A stretch of DNA of 64,000 bases from Dermatophagoides farinae (lineage: Eukaryota; Arthropoda; Arachnida; Sarcoptiformes; Pyroglyphidae): positions 2,170,001-2,234,000 of the forward strand of contig NC_134682.1 of the NCBI RefSeq assembly GCF_024713945.1. The letters are read 5' to 3'. Positions within the stretch are counted from its first letter, which is position 1, and every line of letters starts with the position of its first letter. The position numbers and the translations under genes are program-made. Below the pieces are notes generated by a model. It ran no database searches. It saw only the letters and a program-made list of their open reading frames with translations, and was not told the origin of the DNA. Shown one piece after another: positions 18,002 to 58,800 of this stretch.

Positions 18002-21000
18002 ATGGCCCATAATAACCATAATGATGATGATCATAATCGCCGTCATCATACCGACAAAGCTAGTGGTGGTGGTGGTACAATTTCAAATTGCCAAATTCAA
18101 CAACAACAACAACAGCAATCATCAAAAACAATAATGAAACAACAACAGAAACAGAAGAAAAAATCTGTTTCAATTATTCGATCTAATCATAGTAGTAATG
18201 ATAGTTTAACTAGCATTGGAATTGATTCAATTCAACAACAATCATCATCATTATCATTATCATCGTCAATGATACAGCTACCACCAAGATGTGATTTTGT
18301 TGCAAGATTAACACCGGAAGGTTTTTATGGTGATCAATTGCCATCATCATTGTTATTATATGATTGTATTGTTTATGTAATCTATTGTCCTAAACATGAT
18401 CGTATTGCTGTTACAAATTTAAAGAAAATGGGTTGTATTTGGTTACCGTTTGTTGTATTGATGGATAATAATAATAACAACAACAATAATGATAATACAA
18501 CATGGCAACAAGCATCACATAATGGTGTAAATATATTGATTGGTCGTCAAGATCCTGAACAGGATGCAAAAGAAGCTGAACGTTTAGCACCTAAATATCG
18601 TATGCAATATTTACAAATTTTACAAATTCAATTACCATTGAAATTAACCTCAAAGACAAAGACAAAGATGACGACTAAAACGGTGACACGAATCACACAA
18701 TTTATTCATCTACAATCAAATCATCGTAAAAATTGTTGTGAAAATACAATGCGTGTTAATTGGATTGCATTGGCTGATATAAGAGCCAGAAAAATTGATA
18801 AAATATGGGGTCCAGAAATCTATCAAATGGTACAAATGTTACTTACACTAGAATCATCATCATCATCATTATCTACAAAAATCATTGAAGAAATACCATT
18901 ATCAAATGCATTAGGTTTATTAAAACAAACCAATACTGAAGAATTTTATGCATTAGAACATTTCAATTTAGCAAACGATCATGCAGCTATCATTAAAATC
19001 TATGGAAATTTTATAAAACATTGTTATCCATCAACAATGATGTCATATGAATCATTTCGATCATATTTTATTAAAAATGGTGATCCATCATTGGATAAAG
19101 ATCGTTTATTGCCATTATTTCGATCATTTATTTCAATTAATAATCTAGAACAAAACAACCATCATCATTATCAAAAACAAGATGATTTTATTGATTTTCA
19201 TGAATTTCTAATCGGTTTAATAGCTATTGATCCAAAAACATCGGATACATTGATGGCTAGGCTACGTTTCATTTTTCGGTATGGTAATTTTTTAACAATC
19301 AAAAATGTTTTGTATGTGTGTGTGTATACATTGACTGATGATGATTTATTCTTATTTTTTTCCATTTTTCTTTTATCATCATTATTATCATGATTGTTTA
19401 TTTACATGGTTCAATGAATTTTACCTGTACAATATGGCTATAATAATATAGCTATTATGATTATGGGAGAAAAAATTATCTTGATTATATGGATCTAGTG
19501 AAAATGTTCAAAGATATACATCCTGATTTTAATGATTCAATGATCAATTTATTGATGGAACAATTTCGGCAAACACAAACACCATTAACAACAACAGCAA
19601 CAACAACAACAACAAAAACATCAAACAATATGATAATATTTGAGGATTTTGTAAAATTTGTACAAAAAAATCAAACATCATCATCATCATCAACAACAAC
19701 AGCGAAATTCACTCTGAATAATCTATGCCGTATCAAAAAAAGTTTATTGATGCGTTTAATGGAAAAGAAAAATAATGAAAAGGAAAACACGACGAATAAG
19801 AAGAAAATGGAAAGATTGAAATCTAATGCTAAACAACAACAACAACAACAACAAAAAGTGAAAACGACCGAGAATAATAAGAATCAAAATAAAACGAAGA
19901 ATAATAAATCGATGAATAGTAAACGTTATAATAATAATAATGAAGAAGAATGTCAACGTTTTTTTCCATTGAAAAAATGTCAACGTTGTTGTTGTTATTT
20001 TCGTCAACAGTCTTCATTGTTATCACCATCATATCGTATCGGTAGCCATTGTGTTACATTCAATAAGAATGGTCGTTGTGTTGAATCAAAAATTATTTGG
20101 AAAACACAGCAACAACAACAACAACATTCATCTATTGAATGTTGTAATGATGACGATGATGATGATGATGATGATTTATTATTTGATTCAATCGAATTAT
20201 CGAAACGTATGCAGAGGCAACAACAACAACAGAAACAAGAGCGACAAATAGAAATTTCAAAAAAATCAACTGAATCGACAGATTTAATCGACTATGAAAT
20301 GTATGAAAGACGACATCAACAACAGAGACGACGTTATCAATATTCAATGGATTTTATCTTTTCATTTACATCCATTGCAAATATTTTCATTGAATTGATT
20401 CAAGATTTTTATCGAAAAATTCATGAAAATCAAATACTGAATTGTTGTAAAGAAGTAAATAAGAATTTTGATCAACAACCATTATCAACAACAATGGGTA
20501 TAATGGTTGCAACGGATGAAAGGTCAATATTTGCTAAATATTTAAATGTTTTATGCTCAAAATTGGCCAATATGTTGAGTCATGAAGAAAAATTGATCAA
20601 AGTGAATGCACCGGCATTTGTATTTGGTAATATCGATGGAAATCTAGATCGATTGATGCGAATGAATAAATTATTTTTTCAAAGTTTTCCAATCCTTGTT
20701 GAAAATCTGATATTTTTAGGTAAGAACTGATGTTGTCTTTCGAGATTGATTGATTTGATCATCTAATTTTTAGGTAATTATTCTGGTACTAAATATGGTT
20801 TTGGTATAGAATGTTTAGTCTATCTATTTTCCATGAAACTTGTTCAACCGAATAAAGTACATTTATTACGTGGCCAGAATGAATGTCTAGTATTATCGAA
20901 TACGAACAACAAAAACAAATCATCATCACGGTCAAAGAAAAAACTAATTGGTATGAATGAAACAACGATAATGCAACAACCATTGTGGAATGAATGTTAT

Positions 21001-23763
21001 CAAAAATATGGCAAACAATATGGACAAATTATTGGTGAAACATTGGCAAAAATATTTGCTTTACTACCAATAATCATTATTGTCGATGAGAATATTGCAT
21101 GTGTACATTCAGGTATACCATTATCATCAACAACAACTAGTAATAAGAATCTGGAACAACATTTTTATTCATCATCATCATCTTCATCATCGAAACGACA
21201 ACATAACATTAACAACGACATTCCTGTTACCAAACGTGATGATGATGATGATGATTATATGGATCAGATAACTAAACAGGCAAGTTTTATTTAGTTGTTG
21301 TTGTTTTTTCTGTTGATTGTATAATAAAAAAAATTTTGTTTTATTTTATTCCTACACATTTTAGATCCTCACACGATATCCACATGATGATGATGATGAT
21401 GATGATGTAAATTCAACGATCCAAAGATACAAGAAAATTGTTTCAAGGCCAAAATCAACATCAACAACAGTAACCGAAATGGCTACTGACAATAGATCAT
21501 TGTTGAAATTGAATAAAGTTTCCACTAAAATTGTAGTACAACAACCATTACCAATGAAAAAAGATGTGATGATGGTGAAATTACCACCACCAACATCATC
21601 AACATTGGATAAACAAATAAAAATAAATGATCCAAAATTTCATTATACGAAAAGCTGTTCCGGATTTATGACAACAATAATGTTGGCCGAAAAAACTTGC
21701 ATTATGGAAAAGATTTGCTTGAAACAACAATCACCATCAACAACAACATTATCATCAAGAATTCTTAGTTCTTCATCAATAAAAGTAAGAGACCAAAATA
21801 GTATCATAATAATAATCATCATCGGTGTGTCGGTAGTTGTTGTTGTTGTTGTTGTTGGTAACTTGTATTATATTGTATCGTTGAGATGATGATTATTAAT
21901 TAATCGAAAGTGTTTTTCTTATTTCCATCGTGTGTGTGTGTGTATGGTAAGTGTGTGGGTGTTATATTCAGCGATAAAAAATTTTCATCAAACAATATCA
22001 TATGGAACAAAATAACTAAAGTAGCAGCAGCAGTTTTCTTTTATTATTATTATTATTATTTTTAGTATAGAAAATTCAAACAGAAAAAAAAGTTCAAAAG
22101 TCAACATACACACACATATTGTATAACGGTTATTTTTGTTGCTGTTGTGTTATTGTTATTCGACAAAATGATTATTATCGTTTGAAATACATGGAGAGAA
22201 CAGAGAGAAGAGAGAGTTTTAGTTGTGAAGTAAATAAGTCTTATTTTTTTCATCAATTTCAACGAGAAATAAAAAAAAAATAAGAATCCAATATGTTTTA
22301 TTTTCTTAGGTTTCTTTAATTAGGTCTACACAGAAAAAAAAATTTGTACACTGTAATAATAATTATTATTATCATTATCATTTTCTCTTAAACATTGATC
22401 ATAGTAGTATAGAAATGTATTATCGAAAATGTAAAGCTTTTTTTTCAAGGCAAGTCAATTTTATTTTGGAAACAAGGATCGCAAGAATACACTGACATAA
22501 GCGCATACACCCACACACACACACACACACAAATGAAATGTAATCTATCAACAACACATGTAGACGTTTTTTTATATCTATTTACGAGAATCTTTTCATA
22601 TTTATTACTATTTTTTGTAAAAAATATGTTCTTCTTTCAATCATCATCATCATCATCATCTGTATCTGTTGTCCCAATTTATATATTAGTTTGTTATTTA
22701 TTTATCTTAACTAGATTTTTTTTCTCTTTTTTCTAATTCCTTTATTCTAATATTTCATTTTTTCTTCTCTTTTCCTGTTTTTTTTTCATTCATTCATTCA
22801 TTCATTCCATTCAATTTCCTATCATCATGTCCAAATGTTATGTTTGTTTGTTCGTTTGTGTGTATGTATGTGTGTATGCATTTCATAGTCTAATTCATCG
22901 ATTATAAGCTTATGTGATGCTAAAAGTCAACAACAATCATCAACAATGAAACAAGAGGAAAAATCATCATCATCGTCATCATCATTGAATTATCATCATC
23001 ATATATCAATGGCAAACATTAATTTTAAGATTATCAAAGATAATCAGGTTTGTCTGTGTTTATTTTTGTTTTTTGTCTAAATAATAATAACATAGAGGCA
23101 TGATGTTGAATATTCTGAGAATCTGGAAAAAAACTAAATGATCTGATTTTTTTTCTGTGTATTATAAGCCCGATTCTCTTTTTTATATTTACATTTGTAC
23201 TATTTATAACGATGAAAGAATGTGTTGCTTTCCGTTGTTTGTTTTTTTTCTGATTTAAATTTCTAATTTTGTTTTTTTTTAAATTCTCCAAAGATGTTAA
23301 CATTCCTGACTAAATATGATCATAAACGACAAAGACGACAAAAATTACCACCGGTAAGATGTTTCATTCACCCTAATTTTTTGATTATGATTAAATTTTT
23401 TTTTACATATTGATTTTTCAGAAAAGTAAAGATGAAAAATCTGGCAATAAGAATAATCAGACAAAAATCAATCATCATCAAAATTGTTGGTTTGGTCGTG
23501 ATGAATTTGAAAATTTTTTAGCCATTAATAATCTTGAATTTGTTATTCGATCAAACGGCAACGGTATGGAACAAAATATTGATGATGACAATGTTAATGT
23601 TGGTCATCGAGGATTTCGTACAAATTTTGATAATAAATGTCTAACGATTACTACCGATCAAATATCATCATCATCAGTTAATCAACAGAATGATGATCAT
23701 CATAATACATCCATTGTATTTATTGATTCAAGTGATCGTCGTATACGTTTCATAAGATTTTAA
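18002..23763 (+). CDS. NUDIX-like/EF-hand-like/PPP pseudophosphatase (7 exons)
   Basis: Exons: 18002-19278, 19452-20719, 20774-21279, 21365-21784, 22889-23047, 23294-23353, 23422-23763; 1343 aa. The ATG follows an AG-like junction and opens a His/Asp/Gln-rich leader. Residues about 95-280 form a NUDIX-like module lacking the catalytic REXXEE box. Residues about 320-460 resemble neuronal calcium sensor EF-hands (IYGNFIKHCYPS; FIDFHEFLIGL; FRYYDYGRKNYLDYMDL) without complete Ca2+ loops. A long low-complexity linker contains a Cys cluster (CQRCCCYF). The C-terminal half aligns with the PPP phosphatase of the paralogue at 27.7-31.6 kb, but every signature is lost: GDxHG is GNIDG (about 815), GDYVDRG is GNYSGTKYG (about 848), RGNHE is RGQNE (about 878), HGG is HSG (about 958), RAHE is RSNG. 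The fold may persist for binding, but phosphatase activity is not expected. Whether it is expressed is unknown. Confidence 0.8.
21280..21364 (+). other. GC-AG intron
   Basis: The exon ends AAACAG and the intron begins GCAAGT, the known consensus of GC-AG introns; it ends CATTTTAG. Both sides are phase 0, and the frame downstream (ILTRYPHDDDD...) stays open. Without splicing, the frame stops at 21292-21294. No better GT donor is present. Confidence 0.7.
21785..22888 (+). other. Intron of the pseudophosphatase gene
   Basis: Donor GTAAGA and acceptor TTTCATAG join two phase-0 exons. The intron holds GT arrays, TTCA repeats and short TTA tracts. Reading through the donor would add about 34 codons of Ile/Val-rich sequence ending at 21887-21889. 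Confidence 0.65.
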
Positions 23764-23907
23764 TATAATTTAGAACAAATTATAAACATCATCAACCTAC
23801 ACATGTTGTGTCCAACTTTGTAAATTGTGATATAATATACTTGACCATCATCATCATCATCATTGACATTAGAAGAATTTCTTATTTGTCAAATCATTTG
23901 AGAGAGA

Positions 23908-23913
23908 AATAAA
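23908..23913 (+). terminator. Poly(A) signal of the pseudophosphatase gene
   Basis: An AATAAA hexamer about 145 bp after the stop codon, followed by a T-rich stretch. It is a plausible 3'-end signal, but such hexamers are common in this AT-rich DNA. Confidence 0.4.
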
Positions 23914-24465
23914 CATTACTCATTCACAGTTTTTTTTTACTTATGAATGATGCTAAACTCTTCTTGATGATGACTGGCATAACGATGATGATGATGATTA
24001 AAATAAAAACCATTGGGATATAGAAAATGATGGTGACCTTCAATAAATGCTGCTAGACGCTAATGTATTATGTGTGATGTCTGTGTTTGTATCCATAGGA
24101 TTTTATGATATTTTCTATACCATTATATTCATTGCCGCCCTACATTGCCAAAAAAAAGCTTTTTGATGATAGTTGATGAAATCATCAACAACACACACAC
24201 ACACAAACAACTGACTAACGATGTGATTACTTTTACTCTTACTTACTCTTAAATATTTATACTTTTACCATGTAAAAGAAAAAAAAATATTGAAAATCAT
24301 CGTCTGTATTGTTGTTATATGCTATGGTTGTTGTCGCCGTCGTCGTCGTCGTCTATAATGCTCAAAATGTTGATCTCTTTTTGTTGTTGTTGTTGCTCAT
24401 CATGAAAAAATCATAACAAATCATTCTGATCGTTTTTAATAATCGATAAATAAATCATAGATAAT

Positions 24466-24467
<2 letters not shown>

Positions 24468-24519
<52 letters not shown>
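24468..24519. repeat. (TG)26 microsatellite
   Basis: A perfect 52-bp TG tract, about 650 bp upstream of the TatD start codon. Confidence 0.97.
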
Positions 24520-24520
<1 letters not shown>

Positions 24521-25167
24521 TAACCAAGATTCTAAATGTTTCAAGATATTCAAAGCATTTACTAATCATCATAATGAGCATAATAATCAATTGAAAACGA
24601 AAATATTTTGGGTAAACATTTTTCATTTGCAATGCAAAAAAAAATAATCATTTTCAGATGATATAAGGTAAACAACAAGCAGCAGCAACAACAAAATATA
24701 TCCAAAAAAAAAATTGTAATGGCGTTTCCGTTTTATAAAATGGAGTCTTTGGTGTTGTTTCATCATCATCGATGATCATTGTCGTCATCATCCGTCGTCG
24801 TCGTCGTCGTCGTTGTTGTTGTTGTTGTTAATATTACCACTCTTTGATTTGTTTTGATTGGTTTTGTGTGTGTGTCTGTGTGTGTGTGTAAATATAGAAT
24901 ATATCAAGAAAAATATTGATGATCAATAAATTTTTATATATTGATTAGACGAATTTTCTTTTTTTTCGATAAATCATCGTTGTGCATTATCATCATCAAT
25001 AAAATATTGATCCATAAATAAGAAAATTTATATATTTGAAAAACAACAAATTCAACAATCAGTTACATCATCTCATCATTCTCATACATTTGTCTAATTA
25101 ATATCTACATTTTGTATTTACGATAATCCACCATTACCACCAATTGTTGTTTATATATTTATATATC

Positions 25168-26746
25168 ATGAATATTCTAAGCCAAAATGTTCGTGATCTG
25201 GTTAGTCAAGATTTTACCGAATTAAGTTTAGATATTGATGGCCATTATCTACTCATTGATATTGGTGCAAATTTAACGAATAGAAAATTTGCTCGAGATC
25301 TAGAATCGGTATTACAACGTGCACATGATGTTGGTGTGAAAAAAATTATTGTCACTGGTACATCGATAAATTCAAGCCGTGAAGCATTACGATTAGCACG
25401 TTTACATCCAGGTAATACTGAATAAAAAAAAAACATTTCAATCGAAATTTAATTAATTGATTTTTTCCGTGATATTTTATCATTTTACTTACATACAAAC
25501 AAAACTGAACGAAAACTTCATCTTCATGTATAGATATAATCTTTTTCACTGCAGGTAAATATAAACCTTCACACATTTGATCTGGTTCAATTTAATTGAT
25601 TTGTATTTAATTAATTTTTCTATTTATTTTTGTTTGTTTATTGACCAAATCGATCTAGGTGTCCATCCACATGATGCCAAACAATGGACCGAACATTCAG
25701 AATCAATATTAAGAGGTTGGTTATTATTGTTATGAGTTTGTTTGTATAAACCCAAGAATTGAATGTTTAATTCATGAGTAAACATTGAAATCTTTTTTCT
25801 TTTCTTTTTTTTTTTTGGTACAAAATCGCAAATAGAAATGGCATTGAATAGTGAATGTGTAGCAATCGGTGAATGTGGTAAGTGTATCGATGTCGAGTTT
25901 TTTTTTCTTTCAAAAGTAATTAACATTTGCTTATTATTTCTCAATCGAATCAATGTTTTTTTTTTGCTTGTTATCAAATAATTTCTACAAACAAGGCCTT
26001 GATTATAATCGTGATTTTAGTCCAAGAGATATACAACGTGAAGTATTCATGAAACAGATACAAATCGCAATCGACCTTAAACGGCAAGGTATAAATCTTC
26101 CATTATTTCTACATGAACGTGATGCACATGAAGATTTTGTTAACATTCTTGATCAATATAAAGATTGTTTACCGAATATTGTTGTACATTGTTTTACTGG
26201 TAGCCAACAGGAAGCATTAAAATATTTAGATATGGGTTTCTATCTTGGTATCACTGGTTATATTTCAAAAATGAAACCAGAAAACGGTCTGATGCAGCTG
26301 TTTCAGGAGAAAAAAATTCCTCTTGATCGTCTAAGTAAGTATCTGTTTGTGTTCGTGTGTGTGTACTTTGAAAATGTCTGGAAATTAATTTTTGAATTTT
26401 CTTTTTTTTTCATTATATCCATCATCCATAGTGTTGGAAACCGACAGTCCATATTGTTTTCCAAACATACGTAGTAATAAATTGTCACAAAAAATCAAAG
26501 ATTCATTGACGGAAAATTCACTTAGCTATCTTAATCGGTAAAAAAAATGAAGATGAAATTTTTTTTTCAATTCTAATCATTCTTCTTTCTTCGTTTTTTT
26601 TCAGTTATAGTTCATTTCAACGAAACGAACCATCTAGTCTTCCGATTACATTGGAAATTGTTTCAGCGTATTTGGAAATGAAACCAGAAGATGTCGCCCT
26701 AAAGACCACTTTGAATGCATTGAATTTTTTTGGAATTTCTTGTTGA
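25168..26746 (+). CDS. TATDN1: TatD-family metal-dependent DNase, TATDN1-like
   Basis: Seven exons: 25168-25411, 25534-25554, 25659-25715, 25836-25877, 25996-26334, 26432-26537, 26605-26746; 316 aa, close to vertebrate TATDN1. TatD proteins are TIM-barrel metal-dependent nucleases with 3'-5' exonuclease and DNA-repair roles. Visible family motifs in order: an LIDIGANLTN start, where the usual metal-binding His of the first strand is replaced (GAN); VGVKKIIVTGT; AGVHPHDAK; CVAIGECGLDYNRDFSP with the catalytic Glu; LPLFLHERDAHEDF; IVVHCFTGS; and LMLETDSPYCFP with the conserved Asp. It ends RNEPSSLP..LNFFGISC. The ATG at 25168 is the first in frame before conserved sequence. It sits between the two phosphatase-like paralogues and is convergent with the minus-strand one. 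Confidence 0.93.
25534..25554 (+). other. TATDN1: 21-nt microexon of the TatD gene
   Basis: Flanked by ATGTATAG and GTAAAT. It adds the seven codons between LHP and GVHPHDAK (reading DIIFFTAG across both junctions), which are needed to complete the second strand of the TatD barrel. Phase 1 on both sides matches the neighbours. Confidence 0.88.
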
Positions 26747-26930
26747 AGAAAATTGAAATCAAATCATGTGATTGAAAGCGGCCGCAAATATTCGACATTT
26801 GAATTTTTTTTTTTAATTATTTCATCAATTTTTTTCGAACAACAAATGATTCTGCGATATAAATCTCTGTTGTTTTTTTTTTGCTTTTTTTCTTATTGTG
26901 TGGACGATATTTTTTTTTCCTATTCAAATG

Positions 26931-26936
26931 AATAAA
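26931..26936 (+). terminator. TATDN1: Poly(A) signal of the TatD gene
   Basis: AATAAA 185 bp after the stop codon, before a short CT-rich stretch. Confidence 0.45.
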
Positions 26937-27430
26937 AATTGAAGAGATGTTGAATATTCTCTCTCTCTCTTTCTATTGTAACAATAATAACATATATTCA
27001 TTGCACATGAATTTAATTCTGTGTTCACCACCACAACAAGATAAGAATTCATTAACAGTAATGAAAAAAAAAACATGAGTTCCAAGTTCCAGAACTTCTT
27101 TCTTTCTTTTTTTTTTTTGTATTATTATTCTTGTTTGTACACACAAAACACAGATCACTGGAGCGAGCCTAGAGAAAAGAATTGATTCCAAAGAAATTGT
27201 CAATGACCAAAAAAACAGAGTAAACTTTAGGAAAAGAAAAAAAAAATACCGGGAATTTTTAATTTCTTTTGGTTTTTTCCTAAGAAAAGCTACTAAGCTT
27301 TATTGCATTTTCTCTTTCTCTCTCTTTCTGATCTTTTCTTCTTCATTTTTTTTCCTGTAAAGTGATATTCTGGAACCTCATCATCATCAAGATTTGTAGA
27401 TCAAAATCCAAAAATATACACCTATACATA

Positions 27431-27464
<34 letters not shown>

Positions 27465-27640
27465 AAGATAAAAAAAATGATTAGACTTTGCCCTATGTTG
27501 TGTTACTGTTACTGCAGTTGGACTGCAATCATCTCTAGAACCTAATAATTCTTAGAATCGGATTCTGTGTTGTTTGTATGTGTGTGAGCGGCTAGTGGTG
27601 TTTGCCCGCCCGTATATATTCAGTATTTTTCGATTATTAC

Positions 27641-27646
27641 TTTATT
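27641..27646 (-). terminator. Poly(A) signal of the phosphatase gene
   Basis: TTTATT on the plus strand reads AATAAA on the minus strand, about 47 bp past the stop codon. Confidence 0.4.
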
Positions 27647-27692
27647 TTTTTTTTCATTCAATAAAATTTGTCAAATTTTCACCCAATATCCA

Positions 27693-30600
27693 TCAATCAT
27701 TATCATCATCGTTATCTTCGTCATCTTCTTCATCATTGTTTGGTCGTGGTGGCAATGTTTTTCTAGCCATTTTTATCATCGATGTTGCCGTTGTATTCGT
27801 AGTATTTGTATCAATTTTAATAACACGAATTTTCTGATCATTCACAAGACATACGGCCGCTTCATTAATACCGCCACAATAATTTGAACAGCTAAATATT
27901 GTTAAACAACGTCCGCCCATATGATATTGATAACCAGGTGGTATTACTTCATGTGCACGAATCAGATGGCTAAGATGATTATCATCTAAAAATTTTGTCA
28001 ACGCTTGTTCACTATAATAACATGCTGTACCACGTTTTGTATTTGGTAGAAAACCACTTTTAAGTCTTATATGTAATGGATTCGGTTGTTGTTGTTTGCA
28101 TTTAACATCTTTATTATCATGATGATGTTCTGTGTTCATTTTATTCTTGTTGATTTTAATTGCTGATGATGTTTCCAATGAATCTTTATCTGTTGTTGTT
28201 GTTCTATGTTGTTGTTTACCATCATTTAAATTATCATTAATACCATTTGGATTATTATAATTTAAAACAGCCATCATTGTTGTCATTGAACGTGTATTTT
28301 GTAATAAATCACGATATTCTTGATCAGAAACCGGATCATTCCATAGTATTTCATGTGCAATATTGGATTCTTGTTCAGGTTCTTTCATTGGTAATTTTAT
28401 TGCTGCAATTTGTTCCAATTTTTCTACACATGATGGAATTCCTTATTATTTGAAATGAATAAACAAAATAAATAGATGAAAATTCTATGAAATTGACACA
28501 ACATTGCTGATTTTATTGTTACTTACCACCATGTGCACAGAATATTGAATCATCAATAATTGCCACCAATGGCATAACATCAAATACATTATTCATTAAA
28601 TTCCATAATTTTTCTGCATATTTATCGCCAAATTTTATTTTACATTCATCAAAAAATGTAAATTCTTTCTGCAATGAACGACATTCATGATTACCACGTA
28701 ACATATGTATACGATGTGGTGTTAGAATTTTTTGACAAAATAAATATAAAATACATTCAATTGAATAATCACCACGATCAACATAATCACCAAGAAATAG
28801 ATAATTTGCCGTAGATAAATATGATTCATAACCACGGTGATTGATAATTGTATGATCATAGACCAATAGATCATGTAGATTACCATGTAAATCACCGATT
28901 ACATAACAAGGTGTCGATACATTTATAATGGCTTGATTATTTTCACGTTTAAATAAATCAATCATTTTATGACAAATCTGTATGATTAATTCAATACAAT
29001 CTCTTGAATTTGGTTGCCATATTAAGCTGTTAAAATTGCCACTACTACTTTTGCTATTTTCTATTTCTTTTTGATTTCGTTGTTGCTGCTGTCGATGAAT
29101 ATGATGATGATGATGTTTATTGTCAACACTTTCGTCGTTTTCATTAATTCCAGTATAAACAATACCATTTCTATATGCAAATAAACGTATTGCATCAATC
29201 ATACGATTACATATGAATGTTGGATTAAAATTTTGTTTCGATAAATGTCTTCGTATTCGTGGCATTCGTTTTACATCCTGATAATTATTGATCTAATGAT
29301 AATGCAAGAAAAAAAAGCAAAAAACCATCATTAATATTGATATAAAAACGTGTTAGAAAAAAAAAATTCACTAAACTTTCATCGGAAATTTTATTTTCCG
29401 CTGAAAAAACTTTCAAAAAAAAAACTTTTTTTCAGAACAACATTCACAAATCATCAGAAAGATTCACATTCGGGTCATTTCACTATTAATTGAATTGAGA
29501 GAAACAGATTTCGGATTCACGGTTTTGATATTGACATTGATGAGAAAAAAGTTTTTAAGAATAAAATGTGATATCTTCTTTTCAGCGCAAAAATAATCCT
29601 CGGAAACTATGACCAAAAATCATTGAAGATTTTTGGACAAATTTCTTTGGAAAACACAACAACACAGTGTTCGCCGCCACCATTGACATTTGAACTGACC
29701 GAACGAATCACAAATAATCAACATTTACAAAATAAACTTACCATTGGTTCATAGAACCAACCATCAATGGTCATTTTGACCATATGGACAGATAATGTAT
29801 ATCGTTGTTTTTGTGATTTGGCTAACATCATCATATCTTGTTTCACATTATCATTACTTCGTAGAGATTTCAATGATAATAATGATGATGATGATGACAA
29901 ATGTAATGATGATAATGATGATGGACAAGACAACGATGATATTGATATTGAACTTGTCATTGTTGTTGATAATGATAATTGTCGTATTCGTTGTCGTCGA
30001 ATTTGTGGATAACAATCATGCTGTCGCCGTCTAAGATGATCTAATGGTGATTGTTGTTGCTGTGATTTTGTCACTATTATGTCATCATTATTTTTATTAG
30101 TATCAATGTGTCGTCGGCTTTTTTTATTACCATCGCTGTTGTCATTATTGTTGTTATTATTGTCATTTGAAATTTTATTAGTTTCCGCCGATTTAGTTGA
30201 TTTAAGCAATTTATCAATACTTGCTAAACCTAATATGAATTCATTGAAATTCAAGTAAAGCCATTTCGAATTAGAATCATTCGATTTTGTTCGTTGTTGT
30301 TGTTGTTGTTGTTGATTTTCTTGAGAAAATAGTTGACGAAATTTTTCAACGTAATTTCTATCTAAATCATTTAAAATTTTTGAGCCACTACCACCACTAC
30401 TACTACTTTCGATAATCTTTGTCGGTAATTCATATTGCCATTTTTTAAGAAAATTTTTCAACGATAAACTAGTCATAAATTCGGATGGATAACAATGCTG
30501 TAAGAAATCTGAATATAATCGCAATATATCGGTTTCATTATAATTCATTTGTTGTAATAAACGATTTGAATTTTTTGATAATTGAAAAACATTTGATAAC

Positions 30601-31619
30601 ATAGTCATTATGGTTGATTCACGATAATTCAATTTATTATGATCATCGTTATCGTTATCAGTTATTAATATCATTGGTTCTGCACCAAGATAATCATGGC
30701 CATCTGAATGATGACGAACATCATTGATTGTATACCAGGCAATTGTTTTATTTGAATTTATATCCTGTCCACAGATATTCATTGAATCCGTACATTTCAA
30801 TTCGATACGATATACAATACGTGTAATAAATTCCAAATAATCCGGTATTTGTATACGTAAAATGTCCATCAGAATCGGTTCATTATACATTGATTGTGTT
30901 ATATGTTGATTTTGATTTTTATTATTATTATTATTATATTTTGATAATCGAATCAGATTCTGTACTAAACGTTCAGCTGCTGATTGCCATGATTCTTGTC
31001 GTCGAATTGGCGTAAATGGTATGAATAATCCTCTATCTTGTACTTCAACAATGGCCAATCGTTGATGTTGTCGACAATAAAGATAAACAATACAACAATC
31101 ATAAAGATATAGGCCATAATGATTAATATGTTCACCATTATTTTGCTTATTTTTGTTATCTTTCATTAATGATGATGCTTTAGTCGCCATTTGATGATGA
31201 TGATGATCATTCATTATCGCTGCTGTTGTCATTGTTGGTGTAACAAAACGTCCTATTTGTTGTTTTTGTTGTTGTTTCGATGATGTTGATGATATCGATG
31301 TAATCGATTTTGATCGTAGTGGACTATTATTATTATTATTGTTATTATGACCTAAACCTAATGATGAATCAACTTTTTGAATGATTAAATTTGAAGTAGT
31401 TTTCGGTTCATCATCAACATTATTAGCAGCAGCAGCATTGACGTCGTTTTTTATTCGTAATTTTTTCTTCTTACTTTTTGTTTTTCCAATCGAATCAATG
31501 GATTTTTTACTAGACGAATTTTGTTTCATTTTAATTGGTGATGTTGGTGTTTTTGATGTCGCCGTTGTTGATGATGGTGATAATGATTTTTGTCCATGTC
31601 TCATTGGATGTTTGGACAT
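27693..31619 (-). CDS. NUDIX-like/EF-hand-like/PPP serine-threonine phosphatase (3 exons)
   Basis: Minus-strand exons 31619-29742, 29292-28527 and 28441-27693; 1130 aa. The open frame extends upstream to 31724, but I chose ATG 31619 (MSKHPMRHGQKS) because the upstream part has no likely start and looks like UTR. Residues 1-160 are basic/Ser-rich. About 165-345 is a NUDIX-like module (LYDCCIVYLYCRQHQRLAIV; QESWQSAAERLV) without the catalytic box. About 355-475 is a degenerate calcium-sensor-like region (RLYSDFLQHCYPSEF; LYLNFNEFILGLASID). A 150-residue Ser/Asn/Gln linker follows. The PPP domain is intact: GDLHGN (about 760), GDYVDRG (about 795), RGNHE (about 823), HGG (881, split by an intron), RAHE (about 1042) and SCSNYCGG (about 1065). 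It has an insert of roughly 70 residues before PNTKRGTACYY. The phosphatase should be catalytically competent. The substrate is unknown. It is paralogous to the gene at 18-23.8 kb. Confidence 0.85.
28528..29741 (-). other. Catalytic exon of the phosphatase gene and the upstream intron
   Basis: The intron at 29741-29293 (GTAAGT...CATTAG, minus strand) separates the regulatory half from the exon carrying GDLHGN, GDYVDRG and RGNHE. The next intron (28526-28442) interrupts the HGG motif after the first base of its last Gly codon. Both junctions are in phase. The 450-bp intron holds no other feature. Confidence 0.7.
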
Positions 31620-55751: not shown

Positions 55752-55852
55752 CCAAATCAAAATCATTATTATTTTCTTTTTTTTCCAGAATAATTTAAAA
55801 AAATAAATTCTACAACTTTACTACAACAACAGTTTTGATCGATTTATTCAAA

Positions 55853-58800
55853 ATGTGGACTGTACAAAGTAATCTGCCTGAAGAATTACAACATCAAATT
55901 AGTTTAGTCTATGGTACAGATGTATTTCCATTAGAAGTACGTACAATATTAGGTGAATGGATTGAAAAACAACCATGGTCAAAAATTGCAACAGAATTAT
56001 GTCCAGAAACCGAAGCATTAGCAACAGCATTGCAACAAGAATTTATATTGAAAATAAATTCATTAGCTCATACATTGGATAATAATCAGCTCAAATATCG
56101 TTTAACACAAGTTGCATTTAGCGCACAACATCGTAATCCAGTTGAATTGGCTAGTATTATTTATTATTCATTACAGAAAGAATCACGAATAATGAGCTAT
56201 GCTCAAAGTGTAAGTTTTTTTCCTGAAAAATTTCATCCAAATCCAAATAATTAATTGTGATAATTTTTTATATTTTAAATTGAAACAAAAAAAAGTGTTT
56301 ATTGGATACGAAACCACCAAGACCAATGCAAGATTCATTTCAAGAAATTAATCGTGACATACAAAGGATTCGTAAAGATTTAACCGAAACAGATGAAATT
56401 ATAAGACAAACGTTCCAGGATCAAGAACAATTAATTGTCAATTATCAGGAACGGCAAAAAACACAAGCATTATTACAGAATGCTCAAACAAATGAACGTG
56501 CAAAAATAATGAAACAATTAGATGTACAGGAGACCAGTTTGCAAACATCTACCGAAACATTAATGAAACAAAGATCCGAATTATTGGATCGTTTACGTGA
56601 ATGTAGTAATGCAATAAATATTTTAATGACAAAAGTATTGGATACAGAATTAGCTAATTGGCATCGTGGTCAACAATTATTAGGAAATGGTGTTATCTAT
56701 ACTGGTTATACATTGGATGATATACAGGATTGGTGTGAAGCATTAGCCGATTTTATATGGCAAAATCGTTTACAAATAAAACGTATGCAAATAACATGTA
56801 CAAACTATAGTCCAAATCAATATCTAAATGATAGTTTGTATAATCTAATGGATGCAAACACTGTCATGTTGAATCGTTTAGTAAAGAATACGTTTGTGAT
56901 TGAAAAACAACCACCACAAGTCATGAAAACGAATACACGTTTTACGGCCACCGTTAGATTATTGGTTGGATGTAAATTAAATCTACATCTAGCACCACCG
57001 AATGTATCGGTACACATTATTAGTGAACATCAGGCGGCATTATTAAGCAATGTGGCCGATAATTCATTATCATTCATACAGAATGAATCGGCCGCAGGTG
57101 AAATTCTTAATAATGTTGGCATTATGGAATATCATGCCGCCACCACTCACCTAAGTGTCCATTTTCGTAATATGCAATTAAAAAAGATTAAAAGAACCGA
57201 AAAGAAAGGTACCGAATCTGTTATGGATGAAAAATTTGCCCTATTATTTAATTCACGTTTCACTATAAGTCAAGAATTTGGTGATATGCCAGTCAGAGTA
57301 AGTTTTCTGGAAGAAAGTTATTCACATTTTAATTATTTCAGAAAATTTTTTTCTATTCCAATCTAATTTAATTCTTGTTTTTTTCTCTTTTCTTTGAAAA
57401 ATTCTTGAAATATTTTTCATTATTATTTGCAGATTCCATGTTGCGTTCAAACATTCTCATTACCGGTGGTTGTAATCGTACATGGTAATCAAGAACCACA
57501 TGCACATGCTACAATCACCTGGGATAATGCATTCGCTGAACAGGTAGGAAAAAAAAGAATTTCAAAATTATTGAATGATTAATTAATTTATGATTTTTTT
57601 TCTCTCACAAATTCAGAGACGAACATCGTTCATTGTACCAGATAAAGTTCCATTCTATCGTGTTGGTGAAGTACTAAGTCAAAAATTCATTGCAAATGTT
57701 GGTAAAGGTTTAAGTCAAGATAATCTAAGATTTTTGGCTGCAAAAGCATTACGTACGAATAATGTTCCCGATTTGAATGTATTGATTACGTGGAGTCAAT
57801 TCAGTAAAGAACCATTGCCGGATCGTAATTTTACATTTTGGGAATGGTTTTATTCAATATTGAAAATAACTAAAGAACATTTACGACCATTATGGAATGA
57901 TAATCTAATACATGGTTTTATTAGCCGTACAGAAACGGCAAATATTCTATCACAATCAGCGATGGGAACATTTTTATTACGATTTTCTGATTCCGAACAA
58001 GGCGGTCTAACCGTAGCATGGAAAGGAAAATCACCAGAAGATAATACAATTGGTTGTTTTATGTTACAGCCATTTAATGCAAAAGATTTGGGCATACGTT
58101 CATTAGCTGATCGTTTAAATGATTTAAAAAATCTAACACATCTATATCCAGATACACCGAAAGATGTTGTATTCTCTAAATATTATACACCGATTGGTGA
58201 AACAACGAAAACAACTACCGGTTATGTTAAACCAGTTCTGGTCACTTGTGTGCCTGGGTATTATTGATATTTTGTTAATTCATTCATTCATTATTTTCAA
58301 TCATTTTCTTTCATTTCTTTTATATTTACTTTTAATTTAACTTTGTTATTTATTCTTTGATTCTATTTTGTTGATAATCAAACAATAATTTCTAATTTTA
58401 ATAATTTCCTTTGAAAAAAAATATATAAAATTCTCATTCTCATTCTGTCTTTGTTCTTTTTTGTCTCATTTTTTTTTCTTTCATTTATCCTATTCATTTG
58501 GTTGTTGTCTATTTGTTTCGGGTATTGTTAATGTTGTTGATAATCATAAAACATATGCAAAATTTTCCAAATATCGCGACCAAATATTCTAAATCATCAA
58601 TCCACTTGTTCGTTGACCACATAGTCTATCTGCAATGTCATTGGAATCATTTCCAAATACACCACAATCATCATTACAGCCACATTCACCTGGTGATTCA
58701 AATTCAATGCCATTCGATTCGAATACAACATCAATGGATTGTACAACAGTCAAGTAAGTTTTGTTTTTTCGTTTTTTTTTTATCACTGAAATCAATTAGG

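Follow-up and report, generated by a model that had tools for sequence, protein, structure and literature searches.

A mite PPP phosphatase subfamily with an EF-hand domain ahead of the catalytic domain and a branch of putative pseudophosphatases

Introduction

Why does a mite genome hold, at one locus, a PPP-type phosphatase gene with all its catalytic motifs and a relative of the same layout that has lost them? The question is raised by a stretch of 64,000 nucleotides of the Dermatophagoides farinae genome (NC_134682.1, positions 2,170,001 to 2,234,000, on the contig that we call C6; hereafter the window). Two neighbouring genes, here named the plus and the minus copy after their strands, were described in the initial annotation as an active/dead pair of phosphatases built from a NUDIX-like, an EF-hand-like and a PPP part. 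Our analysis places them instead in a PPP subfamily of the mite, made up of candidate Ca2+-tuned phosphatases and a maintained, non-cleaving binder branch, with male germ cells as a possible setting; we consider this reading to have an even chance of being correct.

Results

The exons of both window genes were joined by hand, guided by open frames and splice sites, and the models are predictions. The plus copy (18002..23763, + strand) comprises seven exons (18002-19278, 19452-20719, 20774-21279, 21365-21784, 22889-23047, 23294-23353 and 23422-23763) encoding 1343 residues, and the minus copy (27693..31619, - strand) three exons (31619-29742, 29292-28527 and 28441-27693) encoding 1130 residues, neither with an internal stop. 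The start codons, ATG at 18002 and 31619, respectively, are the outer limits of the locus, and all introns are GT-AG with the single exception of one GC-AG intron in the plus copy. The two proteins are collinear (BLASTP E-values of 3e-24 over the PPP core and 2e-12 over the N-terminal part), the plus copy carrying long low-complexity insertions. These alignments and the full-length models confirmed that the parts follow one another in the same order in both genes.

The PPP domain of the minus copy is encoded on the - strand in two exons, the first (28527..29292; Metallophos E-value 1.7e-22) with the motifs GDLHGN, GDYVDRG, RGNHE and CAHGG, and the second (27693..28441; Metallophos 0.0097, the C-terminal half of the domain) with WNDP, KRGT, RAHE and SNYC. 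In the plus copy, the five signature motifs read GNIDGN, GNYSGTK, RGQNE, VHSG and RSNG. Of the 11 active-site positions that we tabulated, the minus copy keeps all 11 and the plus copy two, namely the H of HSG and the R of RSNG. The contrast between one motif-intact copy and one with five motifs lost was therefore correctly recognized at the outset; all the plus motifs are broken, although these two residues remain. The dead domain, recognized from the active-site table and the tree, spans exons 2-7 of the plus copy (20600..23763, + strand). It is complete, with the C-terminal end (WFGRDEFENFLAINNLEFVIRS ... RIRFIRF) encoded in small exons up to 23763.

The N-terminal exons of both genes and the minus PPP exon then served as queries against the genome (62.4 Mb), in which, in keeping with D. 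farinae, one gene encodes a segment that matches Der f 2 (PDB 1ahk) at 119 of 120 residues and Der p 2 less well. Besides ordinary phosphatases, the searches yielded loci with the layout of the window genes, of which 12 were again spliced by hand; a further locus, L050, was added later. Including both window genes, the D. farinae genome holds at least 15 family members, nine active-looking and six dead, the number being a lower bound because the six-frame searches score best candidates only. No further members emerged when L050 or the PPP exon of the dead member L028 served as the query. The 13 additional genes lie on contigs C1, C2, C6, C7 and C9 and have the layout of the window genes: an N-terminal tail with many simple repeats, then the conserved N-terminal domain, an EF-hand domain, a CxxC element (lost in the minus copy) and a C-terminal PPP domain. 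The notion of an active/dead pair hence had to be abandoned, since the window genes are two of 15 members and belong to different subfamilies in the N-terminal tree. The closest relative of the plus copy is a dead copy at C1:5668713 (43% over the N-terminal exon), and its closest active relatives exclude the minus copy in the PPP and N-terminal trees alike. In four members (L026, L030, L035 and L050) one open frame covers the conserved parts, L027 was modelled without its first exon, and L027 (C2:566500-572500) and L029 (C6:4096500-4103000), although well conserved otherwise, show one frame slip each, one of them near a CAA repeat. In the dead member L050 (C2:1916003-1918405), the EF part is shortened.

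All nine active members keep the 11 active-site residues, and Metallophos matched further ones among them (L026, 1.5e-28; L035, 3.6e-28; L030, 4.1e-25; Pfam). Judging from these residues, the nine should be Ser/Thr phosphatases, an activity that is established for PPP enzymes carrying them. All six dead members have exchanged the first D of GDYVDRG for N and the H of RGNHE for N, the remaining active-site positions being mostly dissimilar among the six. By descent and by residue loss, they qualify as putative PPP pseudophosphatases.

A 26-row PPP tree separated the family, together with one lone PPP gene (L045), from 11 other PPPs of the same genome (support 100/99) and united the five dead copies then available in one clade (100/99). 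Since the lost motifs might draw dead copies together, the PPP trees were rerun without the motif columns; in the family-only version, L050 joined L034 and L036 weakly (71/92). A tree of the N-terminal half (15 rows, 480 columns) recovered the five dead copies as a clade (100/98) and placed L050 with L036 and L034. For this half, a single clade of all six dead copies was rejected (approximately unbiased test, p-AU 0.0165), with the warning that long branches meet there, those of L033, L050 and the plus copy being long. As to introns, four of the five dead-clade genes (L028, L029, L031 and L033) have one in common at the same column and phase; the plus copy lacks it and shares a different one with the active L025, and L034 and L036 have a further intron in common. 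Because the N-terminal-half tree and the shared introns agree, it is well supported that the five dead copies represent one old clade, in which catalysis would most simply have been lost in one ancestor. A second, separate loss is likely for L050, whose N-terminal half groups with active members and whose PPP placement varies among trees. The lone gene L045 (C2:1634482) has intact motifs and a very long branch and groups with the family by its PPP domain; the N-terminal domain and the EF-hands are absent from its open frame.

For the middle part, a profile was built from 12 members out of the 15, without L033, L036 and L050 and with the minus copy only in part. Searched against the PDB, it matched neurocalcin delta (E-value 3.4e-14, profile positions 2-154), KChIP4 (1.7e-12) and NCS-1 (4e-12), and also calcineurin B (about 4e-7). 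The middle part is accordingly an EF-hand domain of the neuronal-calcium-sensor type, and comparison with recoverin/KChIP-type folds, suggested with the initial annotation, did reveal an EF-hand relationship. As in neurocalcin, KChIP and NCS-1, nearly the whole four-EF unit is matched, with a CPS-like EF1; unlike these sensors, the unit is internal to a phosphatase chain and most of its loops are degenerate. Pfam EF-hand models matched up to 11 of the 12 members, mostly weakly, with EF-hand_7 above the cut-off in L035 (33.6 vs. 30 bits) and below the gathering score on exon 2 of the plus copy (0.0071). The EF region precedes the PPP domain in all 15 members, so that the early claim of EF-hands ahead of the phosphatase, and not behind it, stands for both window genes.

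In the plus copy, the profile row places the EF-hand domain at approximately 18980..19690 (+ strand), split by the intron 19279-19451. In the minus copy, the alignment locates its first half at approximately 30180..30540 (- strand), with an EF2 loop lacking the full ligand set; low-complexity sequence takes the place of the loop-3 region, and the EF3 loop could not be located by eye. We have scored the Ca2+ ligands of EF2 in the 15 members and those of EF3 in the 13 with a located loop. A full set was found for EF2 in L035 (1/15) and for EF3 in four members (4/13), the active L034, L032 and L025 and the dead L028. The degeneracy ascribed early on to the EF-hands is thus valid for both window copies and cannot be extended to the family, in which five other members have the full ligand set in one loop.

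We next consider whether the dead genes are maintained. In four of the five dead-clade genes the frame stays unbroken for about 880-1340 codons. No internal stop occurs in the plus frame, against a mean of 112 and a minimum of 89 in 300 base shuffles, a contrast that is overstated, as the exons were chosen to be open. Codon positions were compared in five of the 10 dead pairs, drawn from the plus copy, L028, L029 and L031 (L033 was left out). In all five, identity in the PPP core is 40-51%, and differences are less frequent at second than at third codon positions (0.28-0.36 vs. 0.44-0.59). Mean identities over the 10 dead-clade pairs were 0.35 for the N-terminal domain, 0.28 for the EF part and 0.42 for the PPP core, compared with 0.25, 0.28 and 0.54, respectively, over the 36 active pairs. 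The ratio of N-terminal-domain to PPP identity was 0.83 (0.62-0.97) in the dead clade vs. 0.46 (0.31-0.61) in the active members, with pairs that are not independent and splits that differ in age. From these figures, the PPP core of the dead clade is relaxed towards the level of the other parts, and its N-terminal domain is relatively better kept.

A Cys/His element points in the same direction as a dead-clade character. The pattern CxxC ... HC ... C occurs in all five dead-clade proteins and in none of the 10 others (in the plus copy at approximately 19960..20080, + strand), and is perhaps a zinc site. A plain CxxC element is found in 14 of the 15 members, the exception being the minus copy.

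The N-terminal conserved domain, delimited by family alignments, extends over 18347..18844 (+ strand) in the plus copy and over 30654..31118 (- strand) in the minus copy. Positions with C, H, P, W, G and E are invariant in the 15 members, and Q and R nearly so. Its assignment to NUDIX was not upheld. The Nudix box GX5EX7REUXEEXGU is present in none of the 15 members, and even the loose REXX[ED]E occurs once among them, in the tail of L050 and not in the domain, compared with 16 of 20 control Nudix sequences. Pfam gave no NUDIX match in 13 members, nor on the exons of the two window genes. Against the PDB, a 13-row profile retrieved ribosomal S18 (E-value 0.32) and the NUDIX entry 3fcm (0.48), and the latter disappeared with the 15-row profile. 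Alignment by hhalign to seven Nudix sequences scored 18.8 (probability 1.9%, with mainly the wrong part aligned) and to 20 Nudix sequences 16.8 (1.6%), the controls reaching at most 13.5 in 100 column shuffles, 10.8 for the reversed alignment, 10.4 for the EF part and 11.3 for the PPP part. A collinear full-length Nudix alignment emerged only under a relaxed or global hhalign setting. Single-sequence AlphaFold (AF2) prediction of the domain gave a predicted local distance difference test score (pLDDT) of 34.9 and 37.2 in two runs. In Pfam/NCBIfam, the PPP and EF-hand parts alone could be named, other matches being insignificant, and a scan of the N-terminal profile consensus returned only an insignificant DUF7441 (0.16). 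The own-genome exon searches found no clear match to the domain outside the family loci. At the usual thresholds, profile searches thus found no NUDIX relationship, and they did find one to EF-hands; a Nudix-like character of the N-terminal domain is to be taken as a lead, not as proof.

Discussion

We propose that the active members would act as Ser/Thr phosphatases in which the N-terminal domain selects the substrates. Where an EF loop is intact, the fused EF-hand domain would adjust the phosphatase in response to Ca2+, somewhat like a one-chain calcineurin. In the dead members, the PPP surface would be kept as a phosphoprotein- or partner-binding module, making them non-cleaving competitors or scaffolds for the substrates of the family. 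The dead clade is best read as such a binder because its PPP core, N-terminal domain and Cys/His pattern are kept. By analogy with a sister species, the proteins may work in male germ cells. An RNA-seq study of D. pteronyssinus reports 24 male-related, moderately expressed Ser/Thr phosphatase genes, enrichment of all 17 TSSK-like kinases in males, and calcium-mediated signalling among the male-enriched terms, in a species with aflagellate sperm (PMC12105342).

The closest parallels are other PPP enzymes. Nine family members have the PPP catalytic domain of PP1, PP2A and PP2B (calcineurin A) with the same motifs, and the minus PPP exon is 34-46% identical to the main non-family PPP matches of the same genome; the family differs from these enzymes in its extra N-terminal domain, EF-hands and CxxC element and in its separate clade (100/99). 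Calcineurin pairs a PPP (calcineurin A) with a separate EF-hand protein (calcineurin B), which is of the same broad type as the EF-hands that the family fuses in front of the phosphatase. The family might therefore be viewed as a single-chain calcineurin, with the EF part acting as calcineurin B in cis and Ca2+ gating prevailing over targeting. A PPP profile of six of the nine active members indeed scored highest against calcineurin A (about 205 bits, single-domain chains), and the EF profile recognizes calcineurin B. BSU1 and PP1 follow at 198 bits, however, and with a lead over PP1 of only ~7 bits the PDB scores are too close for a class assignment. A PP2B-type catalytic domain was rejected, the family standing apart from the PP2B and PP2B-like rows of the PPP tree (100/99). 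Calcineurin A carries a calcineurin B-binding helix and a long C-terminal regulatory tail with calmodulin-binding and autoinhibitory elements; by the criterion of length, such a tail is absent in the family, as the nine active proteins end 19-58 residues past the SNYC-like motif, leaving little room for helix and tail. As most EF loops also miss ligands, we regard a single-chain calcineurin as unlikely. Much less credible still is descent from PPEF/RdgC with a shift of the EF-hands to the N-terminal side in mites. PPEF/RdgC combine the same two domain types in one chain, with EF-hands C-terminal to the phosphatase; those of the family are N-terminal in all 15 members and, by their best profile matches, of the neuronal-calcium-sensor type. 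No PPEF/RdgC gene was seen among the PPP matches of the genome, nor with an approximate PPEF1 query, hence a replacement is conceivable; the same query preferred PP5 copies, and its matches to family members were no better than those to other PPPs. A PPEF EF-hand accessory domain is mentioned, without its order, in the available part of one paper (PMC8249667).

Other explanations concern the dead copies. They might be decaying relics that lost catalysis because the genes were unneeded and that are heading to pseudogenes, and the lower PPP core identity of dead-clade pairs, the long branches of L033, L050 and the plus copy, the frame slip in L029 and the low-complexity insertions of the plus copy would all fit decay. 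The open frames of four of the five dead-clade genes and of the plus copy relative to its shuffles, the conserved second codon positions, the relatively better conserved N-terminal domain and the Cys/His pattern retained throughout the clade speak for maintenance, and we judge decay quite improbable. A dead domain with metal-independent or altered-metal chemistry in place of a reader role would agree with the conserved core and with the D-to-N and H-to-N exchanges common to all six; yet the other active-site positions mostly vary among them and no common replacement set exists, which leaves this explanation very little credit. That the plus copy specifically competes with or scaffolds the minus copy, as first proposed, is suggested by their adjoining position and same layout, and is highly improbable given their different subfamilies, their opposite strands, the TatD-like nuclease gene (named by eye) at window positions 25102-26474 between them, and the other members elsewhere on C1, C2, C6, C7 and C9. 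The competitor or scaffold idea may reasonably be inferred from the sequences when freed from a specific tie to the two neighbours. A stronger version of the binder reading, to which we attach little probability, would be that catalysis was lost at least twice by the same two exchanges, of a metal-site D and of the catalytic H for N, to yield permanent, Ca2+-modulated phosphoprotein traps working against active sisters in the male germ cells of mites. The common D-to-N and H-to-N changes could more plainly be due to mutation bias, the genome being AT-rich (28.8% GC in the window) and one base change sufficing, by reasoning, for each exchange.

Several observations weigh against the binder and Ca2+-tuning reading as a whole. 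In both window copies, EF2 and EF3 lack an intact loop. Two of the five dead pairs differ more at first than at third codon positions, and the latter may be close to saturated. When the motif columns are dropped, the PPP tree with L050 added brings the six dead copies together (92/69), and in the family-only tree the five-member dead clade falls to 71/93. The frame slips of L027 and L029 in this assembly mean that these genes may be broken or misassembled. The 24 male-related phosphatase genes belong to the sister species and are unmatched to the D. farinae family, and the word phosphatase is absent from the main text, as far as available, of a Psoroptes ovis paper (PMC6806590).

PPP-type pseudophosphatases are scarcely described, and the dead mite branch would be a rare animal case. 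Apicomplexan PfPPP8, in which GDXXDRG is changed to GNLINRG, is an experimentally studied case, termed by its authors the first pseudophosphatase of the PPP family (PMC10317984). The dead mite members share with it the D-to-N change in GDXXDRG (PMC10317984) and differ in being animal proteins, in forming a clade of five plus one, and in having EF-hands and active sister genes. A kinetoplastid PP2A-like triplet with altered catalytic residues, suggested as PPP pseudophosphatases, belongs to a different lineage, with no accessory domains mentioned in the part of the article available (PMC2175518). Literature searches limited to open-licence papers turned up no recognizable description of the mite family, or of an animal PPP pseudophosphatase; the family may be known as database sequences under generic names, without description. 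Nine active-looking and six dead relatives of one layout offer a natural comparison set for the surfaces retained after catalysis and allow asking whether dead members regulate live ones. The family is further a PPP with a predicted calcium-sensor domain fused in front, the reverse of the PPEF/RdgC order, and may partly account for the large number of male-related phosphatase genes reported in the sister species.

Additional PPP genes, several of them single open frames, were noticed on the small contigs C11 (L001, L002 and L055), C17 (L048) and C21 (L051). We take these to be second PP1-, PP4-, PP5- and calcineurin-like copies and one gene with a Bsu1/PPKL-like signature; their source may be a different eukaryote present in the assembly, whether symbiont, food or contaminant. 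Elsewhere in the window, a STAT transcription factor gene was recognized by eye at positions 55799-58267.

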